Origin: an uncultured Clostridia bacterium
GTDB taxonomy: Bacteria > Bacillota > Clostridia > Oscillospirales > Acutalibacteraceae
Length of the DNA stretch: 64,000 nt
Reading direction: 5' to 3'
Assembly (NCBI GenBank): GCA_947627135.1
Contig: CANQUV010000012.1
Location: 1 to 64,000 of the forward strand
A program made the position numbers and the translations under genes. This document shows, piece after piece, positions 4,240-46,380 of the stretch (within the stretch, counting starts at the first letter, position 1; each line of letters opens with the position of its first letter). The notes beneath the pieces are model-generated. The model was not told the origin of the DNA. It did not search any database and saw only the letters and a list, made by a program, of their open reading frames with translations.

Positions 4240-5040
4240 TCATTCCAGTCCTTTTGCCTTTGCGGCTTTTCTGTCTTTTATATTAATAGCAATCAAAATT
4301 GCCAATATTGTTATAAACAGCAACGCTGAAAGAGCATTGATTTTCGGCGAAATTCTTCTATGAGTCATTGTGTAGATCTGAATGGGAAGAGTCTGGAATT
4401 TTGAACCTCTTGTAAAATATGTAATAACAAAGTCATCAAGAGAATATGTAAAACTTAAAAGAAATCCTGAAAAAATTCCAGGCATAATTTCGTGGATCAC
4501 AATCTTGGTAAACGCCTGCCATTGGTTGCAGCCAAGGTCAAGAGCAGCCTCGTAAATATGACTGTCCATACGCTTTATTCTGGGCATTACGCTTAAAATA
4601 ACATAGGGGGTGCAAAAGCTTATATGCGCCAACAGTACGGTCCAGAAGCCCATTTCAAAATTAAGTGCAACTCCTAAAAGAGTAAACATAAGCATAAATG
4701 ATACGCCTGTTACAATTTCAGGATTTACAATGGGAATGTTTGAGGCATTTTGAATAGCAGTTCTTTTAAATCCTTTAAAATTGCTTATTCCTATTGCAGC
4801 CATGGTACCTAAAATTGTTGCAAAAACAGATGCCAGAACAGCAATAATAAGTGTATTATAGAGCGACTGCATAATCGCATTGTCTTTAAAAAGTTCAATA
4901 TACCATTTGAATGTAAATCCTTTCCAAACAGTTGTTTTTCCGTCGTTAAAAGAATAGAAAATCAATACTGCAATAGGCATATATAAAAACAAAATCAACA
5001 ATGCAACAAATATTTTAGAGGCTATATTTTTTTTCTTCAT
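4240..5040 (-). CDS. potC: Spermidine/putrescine ABC transporter permease PotC
   Basis: 'YMPIAVLIFYSFNDGKTTVWKGFTFKWYIELF' and EAA loop 'YEAALDLGCNQWQAFTKIVIHEIMPGI'. Confidence 0.92.
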   Translation of the reverse strand: MKKKNIASKIFVALLILFLYMPIAVLIFYSFNDGKTTVWKGFTFKWYIELFKDNAIMQSLYNTLIIAVLASVFATILGTMAAIGISNFKGFKRTAIQNASNIPIVNPEIVTGVSFMLMFTLLGVALNFEMGFWTVLLAHISFCTPYVILSVMPRIKRMDSHIYEAALDLGCNQWQAFTKIVIHEIMPGIFSGFLLSFTYSLDDFVITYFTRGSKFQTLPIQIYTMTHRRISPKINALSALLFITILAILIAINIKDRKAAKAKGLE

Positions 5041-7566: not shown

Positions 7567-10500
7567 ATGTTAAAAACAAGAAAAGTTTGGTCTGTTGTAT
7601 TGACATTTGCTATGCTGTTTTCTGTGTTTGCCGTTATTCCGACAGCACAGGCACAAGTAATTGACAAAAATACAGTTCAGGCTGATACAAACAATGAAAG
7701 CTCATCAGCTTCAAAAATAACAAGTGCATCTGACTTTAGTTGGGATAATGCCAATGTTTATTTTTTGCTGACAGACCGTTTCTATAACGGAAATACAAGT
7801 AATGACCATTCCTACAAACGAAGTCTGAATCAGAGCGGAAATGTAGAATACGGCAAATCCAGTACTGCTGCTTTCCACGGAGGTGACTTTGCAGGTATTA
7901 CAGCTAAAATTAACGAGGGCTATTTTGATAATTTAGGTGTAAATGCTCTTTGGATTTCAGCTCCTTACGAACAAATTCACGGTTACTGTATTGCAGGTGC
8001 GGCAGCAGGATCAATGCCTCATTATTCATATCACGGATATTATGCGCTTGATTTCTCACAAACTGACGCAAACTTCGGTACAGCACAGGAGTTTGAAAAA
8101 ATGGTAGATACAGCCCATGAACATGGTTTGAGAATCGTTCTTGATGTTGTTATGAACCATGTTGGTTATAATACAATAGGCGATATGAACGAATATGGAT
8201 TTGGTACATTAAAGAACGGCTGGCAAAACGGCTACTATAATGCAACCCTTACAGATGTAACATATCATCAGTATATTGATTATAATTCAAATGTAAATGA
8301 CTGGGCAAAATGGTGGGGTACCAACTGGTTAAGAGCAGGTCTTGCAGGTTACAGCGAAGGTTCAGGAGATCTTGAGGGATGCCAATCTTTCCTGCCTGAT
8401 GTAAGAACAGAAAGCACAAAAACAGTTGATATACCGAATGTTTTAAAAACAAAATGGACAAAAGAAGGAACTTTTAATGCAAAGCAGGCTGAACTTAACA
8501 ATTATTTCAATTCAACAGGAAAGTCAAGAACAGTAAGAAATTACCTTGTATATTGGCTTACACAATGGGTTGAAAAATACGGTGTTGACGGTTTCAGATG
8601 CGATACTGCAAAGCATGTTGAGAAAGAATCATGGAAAGCTTTAAAGGATCAGGCTGTTAAGTCCCTTGAAACATGGAGAAAGAATAATCCTACTAAGCCG
8701 GGAGCTGATTGGGATGAAAGCTTCTGGATGACAGGTGAATGCTATACTCACTACTTGAATTATGACAGCTATTATACTCAAGGCGGATTTGATTCAATGA
8801 TCAACTTCTCCTTTAATGATCAAAACTCATTTAATGCCGGTGCACCGGGTGTTCCTGCTGTAAATTCTATTAATAATACATATTCAAATTATGCATCACA
8901 GCTTAATACAAACGACAATTATAATGTATTGTCATACTTGTCTTCACATGATACAAGATTATGCAGAAGCAATTTAATTTATCAGGGTTCGGCATTCCAG
9001 TTACTGCCCGGCGGTATTCAGATTTTCTACGGCGATGAAACAAATCGTCCTCTTCTCACAGACAGATATTCGTCAGGTAAAGACCATGCTCTGCGTTCAG
9101 ATATGAACTGGAGCAGCATTGATAATGCCGTGTTACAGCATTGGCAAAAAGTCGGTAAGTTCAGAAATAACCATGTTGCTGTTGGCGCAGGCAGTCATAC
9201 TTCGCTTACTGCAACATCAGGTGCAGCTTTTGCCCGTACATATAATAAGGGCGGGGTTACTGATAAAATTGCAGCTTGTATAGGTGCAAACTCAAATACA
9301 AATGTTACTATCACACTTAACGGTACATTTGCAGACGGAACAGTTCTTAAAAATACTTATGATAACAAAACTGCAACAGTATCCGGCGGTAAAGTTACAT
9401 TTAACAGTGGTGCAAACGGTACAATTCTTCTTGAAGAAGATAAACAGATTATACCTACAACAGAGCCTACAACAGCTCCAACGACCGCACCAACAACGGC
9501 ACCAACAACAGCTCCAACAACCGCACCTACAACAGCTCCAACAACGGCACCAACAACAGCTCCTCTAACAGAACCTACAACACATCCGGACGGTGACAAA
9601 GATAAAATTTTAGTTGGCGATGTAGATGTTGACGGCCACATAAATGTTAAAGATGCTACCCTTATTCAACTGCATGTATCCGGATTGGGTAAACTTAGTG
9701 ATACAGGATTAATTGCTGCGGATGTTGATTACAGTGAAAGTGTAAATGTTAAGGATGCTACATATATTCAGTTGTACTGTGCAGCATTATCATCCAGCGG
9801 CGGTCATGTTGCTGAATTTAAAGAGGTAGATAAAGTTAACCCTACCACTTCTCCATCAACAGATCCGTCAACTGTTCCAACTACCGGTCCATCTACTACT
9901 TCACCGCAAACCGACCCTGTTGTCACCACATATCCCACAGAAACTACATATCCCACAGATCCTACTTACCCCACAGAAACTACATATCCAACAGATCCTA
10001 CTTATCCCACAGATCCTATTCCGTTACCTCCGGATGGTACTGTTAAATTTACAGATAATCAAAACTGGGGTACAGTTTATGCGTATTTCTGGTGTGATGA
10101 ATATCCCGATATGGCAGGTGAATGGCCCGGTACCATGATGTCTTCGATCGGTACAAACGATTACGGTGAAAATATATTCTCTGCTGATATACCCTCAGGA
10201 GCAACCTATGTAATATTTACAAACGGTCAAGATAAGACGGTAACAGTCACTTTAACAGGTGAAGAAGGATATTATACAGACAACACAAGAGACAGTGAAG
10301 GCCTCTTAAATGTATTTCCTTGGTCAGGCGGAGTTAATCCTGATCCCGGCCCGGGACCTGTACCTCCGGACGGTACTGTTAAATTTACAGATAATCAAAA
10401 CTGGGGTACAGTTTATGCGTATTTCTGGTGTGATGAATATCCCGATATGGCAGGTGAATGGCCCGGTACCATGATGTCTTCGATCGGTACAAACGATTAC

Positions 10501-13614: not shown

Positions 13615-14677
13615 GGTTCAAAACTTGATAGATCCGTTTATATATGAAGATATAAAAACCATAAGCGATTATTCTCTTAATTGGGAAAAACTTGAAAATA
13701 AAACAGTGTTTATTACAGGAGCGGGAGGATTTATCGGATATTATCTTACCTGTGCATTGTTAATAAGAAATGATGTTTACAAAAGTAATATTAAAGTAAT
13801 AGTTTTAGGACATGAAAATATAAAACAGCGTTTTGGAAAACTTCTTGAAAGGGAAGATATAACTGCAGTTGTTCAGGATGTTTGTGAAGATATAAAATGC
13901 AAAAAGGCGGACTATGTAATTCACGGAGCAAGTCCGGCAAGTGCATATTATTTTGAAAATAATCCTGTTGGTACAATAGATGCTAATTTAACAGGTACAT
14001 ATAATGTACTTGAGTATGCCCGCAGAAACGGTGCAGAAAGTTCTCTTGTTATTTCAAGCTTTAAAGTTTACGGTACTCTTTACAACGGCAAAAATGAAAT
14101 AACAGAAGATGAAATAGGCTGTTTTGATTTTAACAACTATAAAAATTGTTATGCACAGGGAAAAAGGGTTTCTGAAACTATTGGATGCTGTTTTGCGAAG
14201 CAGTATAATATGAATATAAAAATTGCCAGACCATGCTATATTTACGGTCCTGCAAGAATTGACGACGACAGGGTATGGGCACAATTTATTGCAAATGTTG
14301 TTAGAAAACAAGACATACTTTTAAAAAGCAACGGAGCAACATTAAGAAGTTTTTGCTATGTTACAGATACAGTAACTGCACTTTTAACGATTTTACTTGA
14401 AGGAGAAAACTGTATTCCATATAATATTGCAAACCCTGCTTCTAATGTTACAATCAGAAATTTTGCAAAAGCAGCAGCACAAGCATTTCCCGAAAGAAAT
14501 CTTAAACTTACTTATGCAAATGCTGAAGATGCAGAAGAACCGGTAATTTCCCCCTTGTCAGCAACTCCTGAAATATTAAATGCAGATAGATTAAATGCTT
14601 TAGGCTGGAGAGCAGAGGTTGATTTAACAGAGGGAATAAAACGAAGCGTAAAAATAGTAGAAATACAAAATAAATAA
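13604..14677 (+). CDS. NAD-dependent epimerase/dehydratase
   Basis: ATG 13604 overlaps the upstream gene by 11 bp; 'KTVFITGAGGFIGYYLTCALL', 'YAQGKR' (YxxxK) motif. Confidence 0.88.
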   Translation: MDCKVQNLIDPFIYEDIKTISDYSLNWEKLENKTVFITGAGGFIGYYLTCALLIRNDVYKSNIKVIVLGHENIKQRFGKLLEREDITAVVQDVCEDIKCKKADYVIHGASPASAYYFENNPVGTIDANLTGTYNVLEYARRNGAESSLVISSFKVYGTLYNGKNEITEDEIGCFDFNNYKNCYAQGKRVSETIGCCFAKQYNMNIKIARPCYIYGPARIDDDRVWAQFIANVVRKQDILLKSNGATLRSFCYVTDTVTALLTILLEGENCIPYNIANPASNVTIRNFAKAAAQAFPERNLKLTYANAEDAEEPVISPLSATPEILNADRLNALGWRAEVDLTEGIKRSVKIVEIQNK

Positions 14678-17703: not shown

Positions 17704-20115
17704 TTATTCATGTTTTCTGCTGACAATCAAACATAACGATGCAGCTGAAATTATTATAAAAGTGAAAACTGTAATTGAGTTTGAACCTGTCTGAACACTG
17801 CCGTTATCAAACTCCTTTTTTATGGCGGTATCACTATTTGGAGAAGCAATCGCAGTAATATTTGCTGCGCTATTTACTTTTGCAGGTACATCAACTGTAT
17901 CTTTTGCAGGTTCAGTTGTTATATTATCAATTTGTGCGTCGGTTGCCGGTTTAGATGTCGGCTCGGTTGTCGGTGTAGATGTTGGTTCAGTTGTTTCATC
18001 AATTTGATTTATAACATTAACAATGTTATCGCATACACCCATGATTTCTCTAATGTAAGTTTTATCAAGAAAGTCTGTTACCTTTGCTGAAACATAGTAG
18101 GTGTAACTATCGTTCCAGTGCAAATCGGTATCAGTGTATCTTAATTCCTCTGAACTTAAATTGGCTATTTTTTCCAACTGTTCACTGCCGGCGGGTTTTC
18201 TGTAAACAGAGTATCCGTCTGTCTTGTATGGAACCTGATTCCATACAATTTCAACAGCCTCTTTGTTTTCAATTTGTTTTGCATTTACTTCGGGAGGCTG
18301 ATATTGTTCAAATTCAGAACTCAACATATAAATAATACTCTGCTTGGTGTTAAGATTTTCCGAAGCTTCCGGAATATATCCGTCACTTCTGTATTGCCAA
18401 ACTTCGGGAACATACTTTCCGTTTATCGTTATCTTTTTAGAAAAATCTGTCTCATAAGGATAATAAGAATACCAAAGTCCCATTCCTGCGTCCTTTATAG
18501 CATCTACGTCAATATTTGAAAAAACAGCTTTATTTGCATAGCACATACTTTTGTATCCGTTTTCATTCATAACACGGTTAAATTCAAGTGCTATTTCTGT
18601 GTTTTGTTCAGTCGTAAACTGTGTGTACTGACTGTCAGACATATTATATGAAATGGACAGAGATATAAAGTGCTTGTATTCGGGTATATAATCTTCAATT
18701 TCTTTTAAAAGATATTCAGCTTCTAATCTTGCCGTTTCAACATCTGTTGCATAGGCTACAAAGTTAAGACCAAAAGGTATTCCGTTTTCAACTGCACCTT
18801 TTACATTTTCCACAAAGCATGAATCATTTTGATTGGGATAATCTTCCCATCCCCAGCCTGCACGGATAATTGCAAAATCAAAACCGTAGCTTTTTACTGC
18901 TTTCCAATCAACAGGTTCTTTCTCTCCTTTTGCATAATTACCGTATCTTGATGTAACATCAATGCCATTATAATATCCGCAGGCTACACTGCATACCGCA
19001 TAATCACCTGTTTGTGTTTCAGCTTTAATCTGTACTTGTCCCATTGAAACTGCCGTTACAACACCGTTATTGTCAACGGTTGCAATATTTGTATTATCAG
19101 ACGACCATTTGATTTCAGGTATTTCATTAATATTACTTTCTGTGATTTTAGCTTTCAGCTGAATTTTGTCTCCGATTTGAACTGAACTGTATTTGTAATC
19201 AATTGAAATATCAATATAATCACAAAAATTTTTAAAGGCCCATTTATACAGGTTTACAGAGTCAACCATTGCATAATTAACATAGTTTGTTTCCGCATCA
19301 TATTTTCCGCCTAAAGCAATACACATAAGATTTGTATCTCCTTTTGACGCCGTTGATACAAGGCACTTGCCTGCAAGGTTTGTATATCCTGTTTTAATTC
19401 CCGTTGCATACTGATAGTAATATTCTCTGCCGTTTACATAGTCAATGAGGTAATTTGTATTGATGAGCGGTACGGTATCACCGGGCAGAGTATAATATTC
19501 TGTGCTTACAATGTCTGTAAAATAGGGCATAGTAAGTGCATATTTTGAAATTTTGTACATATCCTCGGCAGTGGTGTAATGGTTTTCATCTGATAAACCG
19601 TGAGGATCATTAAAGTGAGTGTTTTTACATTCAAGCTCTAAAGCTTTTTGATTCATCATATCAACGAATTTCTCAACATCACCGTCGCCTGCATAATATG
19701 CAAGTATCTCTGCTGCATCACAACCCGACGGAACCATCATGCCATACAGTATATCAAGAACTGAAAAGCTTTCGCCGATATGGTTCTGAAAACCTGCCAT
19801 AGACGCATTTTTATCAAGAATATCATCAATAGGCTGCTGTTCAATAGTGATTTTTGTGTTTACAAGGTCTTCTACTGTTTCTGCAATAACAATATATGTC
19901 ATTATCTTGGTCGTAGAGGCCATTACTCTTGTTTTATCTGCATTTTTAGAATAAATAACCTTGTCAGTGTCGGTGTTTACCAGCAGTATTGAGTCTGTAT
20001 TGATCTCAAAATCAGGACCTTCAGCTGCAAATGCACACACCGTAACCGATAAAATTAATATTGTTGAAATAAGTACGGATATTAATTTTTTCATAAAAAG
20101 TATCTCCATTTTCAA
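17704..20115 (-). CDS. Multidomain wall protein: S11 D-Ala-D-Ala carboxypeptidase + Big2 Ig-like + GH25-like + FN3-like + C-terminal TM
   Basis: SxxK 'ASTTKIM', 'PSGCDAAEIL', 'KTGYTNLAG'; 'IKWSSDNTNIATVDNNGVVTAVSMGQVQIKAE' (Big2); 'GIDVTSRYGNYAKGEKEPVDWKAVKSYGFDFAIIRAGWGWED' (GH25); FN3-like; TM 'ITVFTFIIISAASLCLIVSRKHE'. Start is probably MKKLISVL, 24 nt inside the listed ORF. Confidence 0.88.
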   Translation of the reverse strand: MKMEILFMKKLISVLISTILILSVTVCAFAAEGPDFEINTDSILLVNTDTDKVIYSKNADKTRVMASTTKIMTYIVIAETVEDLVNTKITIEQQPIDDILDKNASMAGFQNHIGESFSVLDILYGMMVPSGCDAAEILAYYAGDGDVEKFVDMMNQKALELECKNTHFNDPHGLSDENHYTTAEDMYKISKYALTMPYFTDIVSTEYYTLPGDTVPLINTNYLIDYVNGREYYYQYATGIKTGYTNLAGKCLVSTASKGDTNLMCIALGGKYDAETNYVNYAMVDSVNLYKWAFKNFCDYIDISIDYKYSSVQIGDKIQLKAKITESNINEIPEIKWSSDNTNIATVDNNGVVTAVSMGQVQIKAETQTGDYAVCSVACGYYNGIDVTSRYGNYAKGEKEPVDWKAVKSYGFDFAIIRAGWGWEDYPNQNDSCFVENVKGAVENGIPFGLNFVAYATDVETARLEAEYLLKEIEDYIPEYKHFISLSISYNMSDSQYTQFTTEQNTEIALEFNRVMNENGYKSMCYANKAVFSNIDVDAIKDAGMGLWYSYYPYETDFSKKITINGKYVPEVWQYRSDGYIPEASENLNTKQSIIYMLSSEFEQYQPPEVNAKQIENKEAVEIVWNQVPYKTDGYSVYRKPAGSEQLEKIANLSSEELRYTDTDLHWNDSYTYYVSAKVTDFLDKTYIREIMGVCDNIVNVINQIDETTEPTSTPTTEPTSKPATDAQIDNITTEPAKDTVDVPAKVNSAANITAIASPNSDTAIKKEFDNGSVQTGSNSITVFTFIIISAASLCLIVSRKHE

Positions 20116-20362: not shown

Positions 20363-21253
20363 ATGATATACAAAAAGGCTATATTTAGTTGCGGAGGGAC
20401 AATATTGTTTAACAGAGATTATTTTAAAGGCTGGTACTTTAAATGCAGTACCAAAGAAAAAACAATTGCTTTTATCCCTGCGTTTCACCGACATAATCAC
20501 AAAGAAACTGTCTCACTGCAAATAATTACAAATGATGAGACCTACAATATATTATTTGACTCATTGAAATATGAAGACAAACCTTTATGTATAAAACTGG
20601 GAAGTTGTATTTTTTCGGAAAAAGGTATAGAACTTAATGTAAAAAATGATAATATCAGCATTAAGGGAAAACTGGTTTTTAAGCAGATCACACCTATTAA
20701 ATATAATATTATGGGTCCTTTTAAATTTGTTCCGTTTATGCAGTGCAGACACAGTGTTTACAGTATGTTTCATCAAATTGACGGAGAAATTATAATTAAC
20801 AAACAAAAATTTAATTTTAAAAATGACATCGGATATATAGAAGGAGACTGCGGATACTCTTTTCCAAAACAGTATATCTGGACACAATGTAACTTTAAAA
20901 ACGGTTCTCTTATGCTGTCTGTTGCCGATATTCCCTTGTGGGGTATTCATTTTACCGGAATCATTGGTATTATTATGCTAAACGGAAAAGAACATCGTTT
21001 TGCCACTTATCTTGGGGCAAAGTTAAAACATATAGGAGATAATACGGTCACCGTTAAGCAGGGTGATTATCAAATTACTGCAAAGCTTATTAAAAAGAAT
21101 GCAAAACCGCTTTATGCACCTGTCAAAGGTGCTATGAAGAGAACAATTTATGAAAGTGCTTCATGCAAGGCATACTATTGCTTTTCATACAAAGATAAAA
21201 CTTTGAGCAGATTTACAAGTGAAATGGCAAGTTTTGAATTTGAGTATATCTAA
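20363..21253 (+). CDS. Tocopherol cyclase-like family protein
   Basis: 'RDYFKGWYFKCSTKEKTIAFIPAFHR', 'GYIEGDCGYSFPKQYIWTQCNFKNGSLMLSVADIP'. Confidence 0.65.
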   Translation: MIYKKAIFSCGGTILFNRDYFKGWYFKCSTKEKTIAFIPAFHRHNHKETVSLQIITNDETYNILFDSLKYEDKPLCIKLGSCIFSEKGIELNVKNDNISIKGKLVFKQITPIKYNIMGPFKFVPFMQCRHSVYSMFHQIDGEIIINKQKFNFKNDIGYIEGDCGYSFPKQYIWTQCNFKNGSLMLSVADIPLWGIHFTGIIGIIMLNGKEHRFATYLGAKLKHIGDNTVTVKQGDYQITAKLIKKNAKPLYAPVKGAMKRTIYESASCKAYYCFSYKDKTLSRFTSEMASFEFEYI

Positions 21254-21422: not shown

Positions 21423-22136
21423 CTATAAAAGTGTTGCCCATTGAAGAAGTGCTTTCTGGACATCATTGTAGTGACGTTTGCTTACTGGAATTTTTTTATG
21501 ATTATTTAGAAGTATTTCATAACGCTTAATTGAAAATATTGACGATAATGAAACTACATAACATCTGTGACATTGAACAAATTTATCGGGCGGAAGCTTT
21601 TGATAAAATTTATTTAAAGGCATTTTAACTTCAACTATTCTATCGTCCGAAAGATGAACAGTAAGAGTTTTGTTCAAAATTTCAATATACATAATATCGC
21701 TAATCATAAACATTGAAGTTGATGAATTATTATTTACAACTATGGAATTATGTTTTGATTTTTTGTAAGCTTTAATTATTGCTGATTCAAGTTTTTCATT
21801 ATCGACTGGTTTTAGAAGGTAACCGGAAGGCTCAACTTCATAACCCTGAAGCATAAAATCTTCAGAGTTTGTTATAAAAATTATACTTACAGAATTTTCT
21901 TGAGCTCTTATACTTGACGCTAATTCAATACCGTTTTTTTTATCTAGAATAATATCCAGTAATAAAAGGTCATACTTGTCAGGTTGATTTTTAAGCTGTT
22001 CAAATAAAATATCGGCATCAGTATAAACATTCAGGGTGTATTCAATATTGTTTAAGTTCATAATCTGTTCTATTTGTTTTGAGATTGAATTTAAAAATAA
22101 ATTTTCATCATCGCAGATTGCAATTCTATACAACAA
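21423..22136 (-). CDS. LytTR-family response regulator (AgrA-like)
   Basis: Receiver 'IAICDDE..LLLLDIILDKKNGIELA..IIFITN' and LytTR 'FVQCHRCYVVSLSSIFSIKRYEILLNNHKKIPVSKRHYNDVQKAL'. Confidence 0.92.
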   Translation of the reverse strand: MLYRIAICDDENLFLNSISKQIEQIMNLNNIEYTLNVYTDADILFEQLKNQPDKYDLLLLDIILDKKNGIELASSIRAQENSVSIIFITNSEDFMLQGYEVEPSGYLLKPVDNEKLESAIIKAYKKSKHNSIVVNNNSSTSMFMISDIMYIEILNKTLTVHLSDDRIVEVKMPLNKFYQKLPPDKFVQCHRCYVVSLSSIFSIKRYEILLNNHKKIPVSKRHYNDVQKALLQWATLL

Positions 22137-22175: not shown

Positions 22176-22748
22176 TTAGAAATTATTGTTAAACAAACAC
22201 ATATTTACAATTGTAGTAAAGCTGTTGATATTAGTTTTTGCAATAAAAGTTCCGTTATATTTTTCTGCAATTTCTTTAATGATCTTAAGACCGTAACCAT
22301 GGTTTTGAGGGTCATTTTTTGTAGAAATAATATTGTCTCCAGAATATTTAATTTTACTTGTATTACATGAATTTTCACAGCTTAAAAATAGGAATTCTCC
22401 CTTTCTGTGGATTTTAAAGTTTATAAACCTATCGCCATATTTAAAAAAAGTACATGCTTCAAGGGCATTATCAAATATATTAGTTATAAGACGGCAGATG
22501 TCAGTATCTTCCATATTTATATGTTCGGGAACAACTATATCATAATTTACTTTTATTTCAAGTTTTTTAGCTTTGATTTTATATTCTGTAAGAATAGAGT
22601 TTATCAGTGGGTTAGGGGTATAATTTATAATTGTCAAGTCATTTATGGATTCAGTTACTGAATTTATATAATTTTCAGCTTCCTGATATTTTCGTTGCTT
22701 TATATATAAAGCAACAGCGTTAAGGTGATGTTTTATTTCATGACGCAT
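22176..22748 (-). CDS. GHKL sensor histidine kinase, catalytic part (second half of a split gene)
   Basis: H-box 'MRHEIKHHLNAVALYI', 'DICRLITNIFDNALEAC', 'NHGYGLKIIKEIAEKYNG'. Starts in the A7 tract where the preceding ORF goes out of frame. Confidence 0.85.
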   Translation of the reverse strand: MRHEIKHHLNAVALYIKQRKYQEAENYINSVTESINDLTIINYTPNPLINSILTEYKIKAKKLEIKVNYDIVVPEHINMEDTDICRLITNIFDNALEACTFFKYGDRFINFKIHRKGEFLFLSCENSCNTSKIKYSGDNIISTKNDPQNHGYGLKIIKEIAEKYNGTFIAKTNINSFTTIVNMCLFNNNF

Positions 22749-23509
22749 TTTTTTATTTGTTCTGCATTTTCTGAAATTTGACGGTAGTTATCAACAGTCA
22801 TTTGAAGGTGTAATTTTTCTTCGGATTGTTTTCTGTTGCTTTCAATAATCGAAAAAATCCAGATATAAATAATTAGAGAATAAATTATTATAACAATCAT
22901 AAAAATTTCACTTATGCGTTCATAATTTACTATATTTAAATGAGAAGGCAGTTCGTAACATAAACTGACAACAAAAATAAATATTGCCGGTACGATCCAC
23001 AAATGCTTCCATTGTTTATCATCCATTAAACTTTGCAAAGCTTTTTTGATTTTCTTAATAAGAAAAAGCATAGGAACAAACAATACAGTATTTATGCATA
23101 TACGGATTAAAAGCTCATCGGTTGGATACATATATCCGTCTACTGAAGATACAAAAAACAGATTTTGGCACATGCCAATTAAAAATCCGTAATTCATTAC
23201 AATAAAGAACACAAAAAGTTTTTTGTATATGGTAACTTTTATAACAAAAATATAGAACAAAAGCAAAAAGAGCAAAGTTATATAAAAAATAACATCTTGC
23301 ATTAAATATCGGTAAGGCTCAATTTCACTTGGAAGTGAATGAACACCTACAAAAGTAAATAAGGAAACCATAAGTATAAGTATTGAGCTTATAATAAAAT
23401 TTGAATTTTGTTTATTTATTTTCAAATTGTTATAAAACGGATACATACATAAAAATGCACACGGAAGAATTTGCACTAAAAAGCCGCATATTTGACGAAA
23501 AATTAACAT
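22733..23509 (-). CDS. Sensor histidine kinase, membrane sensor part (first half of a split gene)
   Basis: Multiple TM helices, then 'KQSEEKLHLQMTVDNYRQISENAEQIKK', which leads directly to the H-box in the -1 frame. Confidence 0.85.
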   Translation of the reverse strand: MLIFRQICGFLVQILPCAFLCMYPFYNNLKINKQNSNFIISSILILMVSLFTFVGVHSLPSEIEPYRYLMQDVIFYITLLFLLLFYIFVIKVTIYKKLFVFFIVMNYGFLIGMCQNLFFVSSVDGYMYPTDELLIRICINTVLFVPMLFLIKKIKKALQSLMDDKQWKHLWIVPAIFIFVVSLCYELPSHLNIVNYERISEIFMIVIIIYSLIIYIWIFSIIESNRKQSEEKLHLQMTVDNYRQISENAEQIKKCVMK

Positions 23510-39847: not shown

Positions 39848-40746
39848 ATGAAAAAACATGCATATTTAATAATGGCTTTTAATCATTTTAACTTATTAAA
39901 AAAATTAATTCATTTAATTGATGACGAAAGAAATGATATATTTGTTCACATAGATGCAAAATCTAAAAGTTTTAAAGTGTCTGATTTTAACGATTGTGTT
40001 ACGAAATCCAATATTGTATTTATTCCCAGAACGGAAGTTTATTGGGCTGATTATTCTCAAACTAACGCAGAGTTATGTTTATTGCAAGAAGCTGTAAGTG
40101 CGTGTGGGGGGGGTATAAGTATTACCACCTAATAAGCGGAAACGATTTACCTATAAAAACACAAAATCAAATTCATGAATTTCTTGATAACAAGGATTAT
40201 GAATTTATTGGAATATTTCCTCAAGAAATATGGTATTCTTTACGTAGAGTAAAGTATTATCATCCGTTTACTCATAATAAATATTACAGAAAACATAAGG
40301 AATTAAAGATTTTAGATTTAGCACTTGAATATATACAAAGACTTTTTAAAGTTAATCGTTTAAAAAACACAGACATTAAAATTATTGATGGATGGAATTG
40401 GTTTACTATAACTGATAATTTTGCAAAATATGTATTAAGTAAAAGAGATTTTATTAAAAAAACATTTAGTAAAACAATCGCGAGCGATGAAATGATTATG
40501 CAAACAATGCTTTATAATTCTGACTTTTTTAAAAAAGTATATAATTTAGAGACTAAAGCAAAGGGTTCCCTTAGATATATTAATTTTATAAATGGGAAAC
40601 CATCTGTATTTAAAGAAAATGACTTTGATAGAATTATTAACGCTGATGAATCAATTTTTGCTCGTAAATTTGATCCCGATATTGATTCTAAAATAATTGA
40701 TAAAATATATAATTACATAGATAAAAAACAAAGTATGGGTGAATAG
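39848..40746 (+). pseudogene. GT14 (core-2/I-branching-like) beta-GlcNAc-transferase, frame-OFF at a G8 tract; probably phase-variable
   Basis: 39848-40132 and 40075-40746 match the N- and C-terminal parts of the intact paralog at 41171-42070 and are separated by a 1-nt frame problem at 40105-40112. Confidence 0.88.
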
Positions 40747-41170: not shown

Positions 41171-42070
41171 TTGAAAAAACATGCATATTTAATAATGGCC
41201 TATAACAATTTTGATTTTTTAAAAAGGTTAATTAACTTATTGGATGATGAGAGGAATGACATTTATGTCCATATTGATAAGAAATCTTTGAATTTTAATG
41301 AATCAGAATTTAAAAATGCAACTAAATACTCAAAACTCACATTTATAGGCAGAAAACAGGTGCTCTGGGCAGATTATTCAGAGTTTGATGTAGAACTGGA
41401 TTTAATGCAAGCTGCACGAGAAGGGCAAAAAAAGGGGGGGGGGTATCACTATTATCATCTTTTATCTGGAATGGATTTACCTCTCAAAACACAAGATGAA
41501 ATTCATAACTTTTTTGATAGCAAAGATGAGGAATTTATAGGAATTGTACCCAAAGAATTTTGGTATTCAGTTCGCAGAGTTAAATTTTACCATCCATTTA
41601 CAAGTCTAAAATCTTTTAGAAAACATAAAACGTTAAAAATTTGCGATAGATTACTTGAATATTTACAAAGATTAGTAAGAATTAATCGTATAAGAGATTT
41701 AGATATAAAAATTATTGATGGATGGCAATGGGTATCAATTACTGATAATTTTGTTAAGTATTTGTTAGAAAATAGAAGTTTTATAGAAAAAACTTTTTCA
41801 AAAACTATTGCTTGTACCGAATTAGTTATGCAGACTATGGCATATAATTCAGAATTTCGTAAAAAAATTTATTGTATGGATGATTTAAAAGAGGGCTCTC
41901 AGAGATACATAGATTGGGGCAGAGGTAAACCTTATGTATTTAGAGAAAGTGATTTTGAAGATTTAATTAACAGTCCCTATATGTTTGCCAGAAAAATTGA
42001 TGTAAATACTGACAATAGAATTGCTGAAAAAATAATATCCTTTTTAAATAAAAAAGCGAAAAATGAGTGA
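41171..42070 (+). CDS. GT14 beta-GlcNAc-transferase-like (TTG start), intact with A7G10 tract
   Basis: 'KKHAYLIMAYNNFDFLKRLINLLDDERNDIYVHIDKKS...YHYYHLLSGMDLPLKTQDEIHNFF'. Confidence 0.85.
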   Translation: MKKHAYLIMAYNNFDFLKRLINLLDDERNDIYVHIDKKSLNFNESEFKNATKYSKLTFIGRKQVLWADYSEFDVELDLMQAAREGQKKGGGYHYYHLLSGMDLPLKTQDEIHNFFDSKDEEFIGIVPKEFWYSVRRVKFYHPFTSLKSFRKHKTLKICDRLLEYLQRLVRINRIRDLDIKIIDGWQWVSITDNFVKYLLENRSFIEKTFSKTIACTELVMQTMAYNSEFRKKIYCMDDLKEGSQRYIDWGRGKPYVFRESDFEDLINSPYMFARKIDVNTDNRIAEKIISFLNKKAKNE

Positions 42071-45264: not shown

Positions 45265-46380
45265 ATGAATTTAATTAGAGTTTTGCATGTAATTACAGGA
45301 ATTAGCAATCGGGGGGGGGCAGAGAACTATGTAATGAATATGTACAGAAATATAGACCGTACGAAAGTACAGTTTGATTTTCTCCTTCGCAGTCGAGAGG
45401 CAGCGTATGAAGAAGAAATAAAAAAACTGGGCGGACGAATATTTTATACATCAGAATATCCTCGGCATTTTATAAAAAACAAGAAAGAAGTAGAAGCGTT
45501 TTTTGAAAGTCATAAGGATTATGATATAGTTCATGTCCATGCAAATGCTCTAATTTATATGACCGTACTGAAAATTGCAAAAAAGCACAATATAAATTGC
45601 AGGATTATGCATAGCCACAATACAGATACAAAAAGACCAATATATAGAATTATACATAATTTTAATAAGCAATTTATAAATAAATGGGCAACAGATTACT
45701 TTGCTTGTTCTACCGAAGCCGGTAAATGGATGTTTAAAAATGATTTTGTGTTAAGAAAAAATGCAGTAGATGTAAATAAATTTCAGAAAGATAAAGAAGT
45801 ACGCAAGAAAATAAGAAAAGATTTAGGTGTAGAAGACAAGTTCGTAATTGGACATATAGGGCGTTTTGTTATTCAAAAAAATCATACATTTTTATTAAAG
45901 ATATTTAATGAGTATCATAAAAAAAATCCGGAATCTGTACTATTACTTGTGGGTGATGGGTATTTAGAAGAGGACATTAAAAACCTTGTAAATGAATACG
46001 GATTAAAAGATAGTGTTAAATTTTTAGGTAATCGTAGTGATGTTGATACTGTTTTTCAGGCATTTGACATTATGGTTTTTCCGTCATTGTTTGAGGGATT
46101 GCCGGTTGTAATAGTAGAAGCACAGGCAGCAAATGTACCATGTATAATTTCAGATAATATCACCGATGAAGTCTTAATAACCTCATCTGTTAAAAAGTTA
46201 TCTTTGGATGAGGAAGTAGAAACTTGGATCAAAAATATAAACCAATTTAAAAATTATGATAAGCCTTCTGAAGAAGAAATTATGAAAAAATTTATATTGG
46301 TCGGATTTGATTCAAAAAGTGCAGCAAAAGAATTACAATCCTTTTATTTGAATAAAGCATATCATAAGGTTAAAAATTGA
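45265..46380 (+). CDS. GT4 glycosyltransferase, paralog 1, with G9 tract
   Basis: 'HVITGISNRGGAENYVMNMYRNI', 'FPSLFEGLPVVIVEAQAANVPCIISDNI'. Confidence 0.9.
   Translation: MNLIRVLHVITGISNRGGAENYVMNMYRNIDRTKVQFDFLLRSREAAYEEEIKKLGGRIFYTSEYPRHFIKNKKEVEAFFESHKDYDIVHVHANALIYMTVLKIAKKHNINCRIMHSHNTDTKRPIYRIIHNFNKQFINKWATDYFACSTEAGKWMFKNDFVLRKNAVDVNKFQKDKEVRKKIRKDLGVEDKFVIGHIGRFVIQKNHTFLLKIFNEYHKKNPESVLLLVGDGYLEEDIKNLVNEYGLKDSVKFLGNRSDVDTVFQAFDIMVFPSLFEGLPVVIVEAQAANVPCIISDNITDEVLITSSVKKLSLDEEVETWIKNINQFKNYDKPSEEEIMKKFILVGFDSKSAAKELQSFYLNKAYHKVKN

Follow-up and report, generated by a model that had tools for sequence, protein, structure and literature searches.

A gene for an AgrC-like sensor kinase in an uncultured Clostridia bacterium is divided into two overlapping reading frames at a run of seven adenines. 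It is probable that a recent one-base contraction of this run, from a putative A8 to A7, broke the gene, leaving it to encode a shortened membrane sensor but no whole kinase. Most likely, this copy is broken or switched off, rather than routinely read through by programmed frameshifting. The features discussed are collected in Table 1; coordinates refer to the window, the whole stretch of 64,000 nucleotides that was analysed, unless a contig locus is given.

At the junction, the minus strand reads ..GAA CAA ATA AAA AAA TGC GTC ATG AAA TAA. The heptamer A_AAA_AAA lies in the X_XXY_YYZ phase, and the A of the ORF2 start codon is the final A of the A7 tract (ATG 22748-22746, A7 22754-22748). Both points had been claimed in a sequence-only reading of this DNA and are borne out. 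A -1 shift at A7 gives ..NAEQIKK-MRHEIKHHLNAV..., i.e. ..EQIKK-MRHEIKHHL... The central claim of that reading, that a single sensor kinase is split at the A-tract and is made whole by a -1 shift, also holds: an intact ortholog, from the genome named G127 here, aligns across the junction without a gap, so that the split of one protein is more than a chance arrangement of frames. ORF1 and ORF2 keep every motif and contain no additional stops, which fits a recent event.

Table 1 Features of the split kinase locus and poly-G tracts of the same contig.
Feature	Position	Strand	Description
D-Ala-D-Ala carboxypeptidase (S11) + Big_2 + GH25 protein	17704..20115	-	Syntenic with kinase and regulator in G127 and G102
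LytTR response regulator, cognate	21423..22136	-	237 aa, intact; PF00072 + PF04397
ORF2	22176..22748	-	190 aa; the kinase's H-box (MRHEIKHH) plus its GHKL ATPase domain
Hairpin	22693..22716	-	10 bp, 31 nt past the A-tract, z -3.0; only strong downstream hairpin
ORF1/ORF2 overlap	22733..22748	-	16 nt; ORF1 stop TAA 22735-22733, ORF2 ATG 22748-22746
ORF1	22733..23509	-	258 aa; N-terminal membrane sensor and linker helix, ends just short of the H-box
A7 tract	22748..22754	-	A_AAA_AAA in phase; the frame breaks here; putative A8 minus one base
Direct repeat CAGCGTAAA..AAAGCGTAA	23588..23616	-	~22-bp period, upstream of ORF1; sole such pair in the window
Poly-G tracts in the window	40106-40113 (G8), 41434-41443 (G10), 45311-45319 (G9)		
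Poly-G tracts, contig C12 beyond the window	L117:8142-8151 (G10), 9132-9139 (G8), 10143-10151 (G9), 13966-13973 (G8)		

A whole-gene DNA search of 59 relatives returned short chance matches only, and orthologs were therefore sought by protein among 161 genomes of the genus, one genome per species. Four of these carry the kinase: the genome of the window, G127, G102 and G119, the last being a chicken 'uncultured Ruminococcus' (L035). A phylum-wide search added just one distant homolog. The G127 ortholog is one continuous frame of 450 aa, 51% identical over its whole length. All three orthologs, each from another species, are in frame at the site where the window copy breaks and have neither a slippery tract nor a long A-run there; the junction codons are ATT AAG GAA ATT TCC CAT in G127 and G102 and ATT AAG AAA ATG CGC CAT in G119. 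The order of kinase followed by LytTR regulator is the same in G127, G102 and G119, and the S11/GH25 neighbour shared by G127, G102 and the window confirms the orthology. Between G127 and G102, the kinase has a dN/dS of 0.29 and the regulator one of 0.22.

By its sequence, the locus is an AgrC-like GHKL histidine kinase / LytTR response regulator pair. ORF2 matches PF14501 HATPase_c_5 in Pfam (E=1.4e-21) and, from residue 2 on, the alpha-helical PF14689 SPOB_a (E=4.2e-5, under that family's curated cut-off); its only PDB matches are S. aureus AgrC structures, 4bxi and 6e52. ORF1 has no Pfam domain above cut-off and is ~50% identical to the G127 ortholog. The set of features expected of an AgrC-like GHKL kinase (TM sensor, H-box, GHKL ATPase and adjacent LytTR regulator) is found with the joined protein and with the intact ortholog, and with neither half. 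A polytopic TM sensor, an RHE..HH H-box, HATPase_c_5 and a downstream LytTR regulator are common to AgrC/AgrA-type systems and the window locus. The latter differs in that no agrB or agrD was recognised among the neighbouring ORFs, where short peptides were only partly covered, and in its linkage to an S11/GH25 cell-wall enzyme instead; its kinase also scores far under the AgrC equivalog cut-off (29 versus 500 bits).

That linkage suggests the S11/GH25 protein as a candidate target of the kinase and regulator, and thus a target in the cell wall. The direct repeat upstream of ORF1, which we take to resemble LytTR operators, is a candidate autoregulatory site of the regulator. On the opposite strand, an ORF of 296 aa (20363-21253, +) separates the regulator from the S11/GH25 gene; it is absent from the corresponding interval of G127 and G102. 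Elsewhere in the window, one open frame (26321-23808, -) encodes both a copper P-type ATPase and an HMA domain of the CopZ-like kind; a strong internal RBS (AAAGGAG) and an ATG (24011-24009) precede the HMA domain, so the ATPase gene may also give rise to free CopZ.

Two of the three other orthologs are themselves broken, each independently and at its own site. The G102 kinase has a one-base deletion near residue 54 (CCTTTTTGCTG versus CCTTTTTAGCTG), and the G119 kinase is broken near residue 154, at ATTAAAAATG. With the window copy included, three of four orthologs are broken, at three different sites, against ~3% of the other GHKL kinases of the genus. These separate sites, among one intact and three broken orthologs, argue against a single shared switch. 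The window copy was chosen because it is broken and was left out of the test; 2/3 orthologs against ~3 of 60-90 other genus kinases then gives p ~0.007-0.015, an approximate, post hoc value from hand counts.

The ~3 other GHKL loci of the genus that look broken are in G031 (several contigs), on G119 contig 14 and on G027 contig 11. G031 contigs 68, 69 and 67 (L089, L090, L093) hold near-identical copies of a LytTR regulator and a GHKL kinase, the kinase being split into 164 + 307 aa by an identical frame break in each; where two copies were compared, the differences are confined to near the kinase 3' end. On G119 contig 14 (L087), a second kinase/regulator pair is degenerate: its regulator has an interrupting stop, and its kinase lies in two frames with an internal stop. 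The genus also has short GHKL kinases, which were considered as a sign of conserved splitting and rejected as such, most of them being genuine soluble kinases with their own pre-H-box stretch.

The loss of the kinase would follow from where the break falls. In an AlphaFold2 model of the G127 ortholog (mean pLDDT 82), a single helix spans residues 198-276 and includes His262, and the window break lies two residues ahead of this phospho-accepting histidine; as modelled, it cuts a long continuous dimerisation helix. ORF1 has neither the histidine nor the ATPase, and ORF2 is missing the upstream half of the dimerisation helix, whereas soluble GHKL kinases of the genus retain a coiled-coil-like stretch before the H-box. 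As the helix is severed so close to the histidine, neither half should work alone, and kinase activity is unlikely for either product. The sequenced copy would then yield a truncated membrane sensor only; autophosphorylation is not expected of the two pieces, and the LytTR regulator would be left without its kinase.

It is rather unlikely that the break is an assembly or sequencing error, the true genome having one A more and an ordinary intact kinase gene. The difference is a single base in a homopolymer of a metagenome-type assembly, and the rest of the gene looks intact, as such an error would have it. In a sample of the host genome made of the window and 398 kb, however, homopolymers are not systematically shortened: 188 A7 runs were observed versus 172 expected, hence no avoidance, and 40 A8 runs versus 53, a slight one, with expectations taken from synonymous shuffles that preserve the protein and the codons of each gene. 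Some nine other overlapping ORF pairs were checked by Pfam, and only one, in a poly-G glycosyltransferase, is a split protein; split genes thus appear rare in the sample. The orthologs from two other assemblies are broken as well, at other sites.

Programmed -1 ribosomal frameshifting at A_AAA_AAA, producing truncated sensor and full kinase in a set ratio, is very unlikely. It is favoured by the in-phase heptamer, a feature shared with bacterial cases such as dnaX, the IS3 family and E. coli copA, by a stable hairpin downstream of the tract and by the absence of a second lesion from the gene. Canonical stimulators are spaced ~5-9 nt from the slippery site. The hairpin, at 31 nt, lies beyond this spacing and was not found in the orthologs by inspection; on both grounds we rejected it as a stimulator. 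Inspection revealed no SD-like element upstream of the heptamer either. The site thus differs from the dnaX, IS3-family and copA type in having no conservation, no canonically spaced stem-loop as stimulator and no SD-like element. Neither the three orthologs nor ~45 other GHKL kinases have a slippery tract at this position, and where other orthologs are broken, the lesion lies away from the site of the window A7. Heptamers of this class do shift in E. coli, although without a stimulator even the best reaches only ~0.3% (PMC4066793). Conservation of the site is the standard criterion for programmed frameshifts, and singletons are mostly put down to indels or errors (PMC3711429). The sequence-only reading had listed four mechanisms, of which the indel, which may be a switch, has the best fit; programmed frameshifting does not survive the comparison with relatives, which have no heptamer, or the search for stimulators.

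The heptamer itself is ordinary in this genome. Among 318 sampled genes, which amount to 356 kb of coding sequence, 104 instances of in-phase A_AAA_AAA were counted, about one for every three genes, and a second count gave 110 in 391 kb; some hundred of them sit in ordinary genes, so its presence at the junction is not more than chance. If a Lys-Lys-Met-Arg-His stretch loses one A from NNA AAA AAA ATG, seven As are left in what must be the slippery phase, and a -1 shift is bound to restore the frame. The slippery phase and the -1 restoration are one fact, not two.

Transcriptional slippage on the A-run, which would supply some full-length mRNA and partly rescue the kinase, is about as improbable. 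Such slippage is known in frameshifted genes, with A9 as the typical threshold, and the sensitive run length is nine in many bacteria (PMC1088944). The host genome agrees with this length: A9 runs are strongly avoided (2 observed versus 17.5 expected) and runs of A10 or longer were not observed in the sample, while A7 is tolerated. Since strong avoidance starts at A9, we place the slippage-sensitive length at nine; A7 should therefore be fairly stable in replication and transcription, and slippage there is probably rare. This mechanism, too, had been allowed by the sequence-only reading. Least probable of all is that ORF1 and ORF2 are made as separate proteins, through coupling or restart at the tract ATG, as a two-piece or soluble kinase: an ATG does lie in the overlap and the genus has soluble 241-aa GHKL kinases beside LytTR regulators, but those keep the pre-H-box stretch, whereas ORF2 would begin two residues before the histidine, mid-helix in the intact ortholog, its ATG is preceded by no SD, and the two-ORF arrangement is unique to the genome of the window.

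We therefore return to the contraction of the A-run. An ancestral A8 would recently have lost one base to become A7, breaking the frame, splitting the gene and probably silencing the kinase. Low-frequency slippage may undo the change, by analogy with the phase variants of S. aureus agr, a system that offers precedents for a dead end as well as for a reversible OFF state. In that species, agr-negative strains commonly have lesions in agrA or agrC, frameshifts and poly(A) changes among them, and reversion occurs in some (PMC6686034; PMC7911514). The likeness is that frame changes in short A-runs of a kinase or regulator gene turn the system off, recurrently and independently; the differences are that reversion, only a possibility here, has been demonstrated in S. 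aureus (PMC6686034), and that the breaks compared here are between species and not between strains. Mismatch-repair loss was rejected as a cause of slippage: mutS is intact, and fast A7/A8 slippage is accordingly not expected. Nor is the A7 longer than chance or in a hypermutable length range, as a phase-variation tract would be; in this it differs from the G8-G10 tracts that the contig also carries.

There are seven such G8-G10 tracts in a polysaccharide gene cluster, in a genome of ~30% GC with only 12 of them. Their host genes encode Branch, GT4, GT2, fucosyltransferase-like and Acyl_transf_3 proteins, plus one gene without assignment; three of the seven tracts are out of frame (40106, L117:8142 and L117:9132) and four are in frame. 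From their sequence, the seven look like contingency loci for slipped-strand phase variation of a surface polysaccharide, and they are far better phase-variation candidates than the kinase A7. On contig 2 of G000, tandem Acyl_transf_3 paralogs each have an in-frame G9 at the same position (L118:3251-3259 and 4482-4490), another pattern typical of contingency genes.

As this locus shows, the presence of a textbook slippery heptamer where a gene is split is no evidence of programmed frameshifting: its phase comes free once a Lys-Lys run loses one A. More tentatively, and with a good deal less likelihood than the loss of the kinase in the sequenced copy, small indels might repeatedly, and perhaps reversibly, switch off kinases of this orthologous group in gut populations. 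This would be an agr-like bet-hedging, with the regulator tied to a cell-wall enzyme and poly-G polysaccharide phase variation in the same organism. If it holds true in strain data, the agr-type pattern of lost or switched-off sensors would extend to uncultured gut Clostridia.
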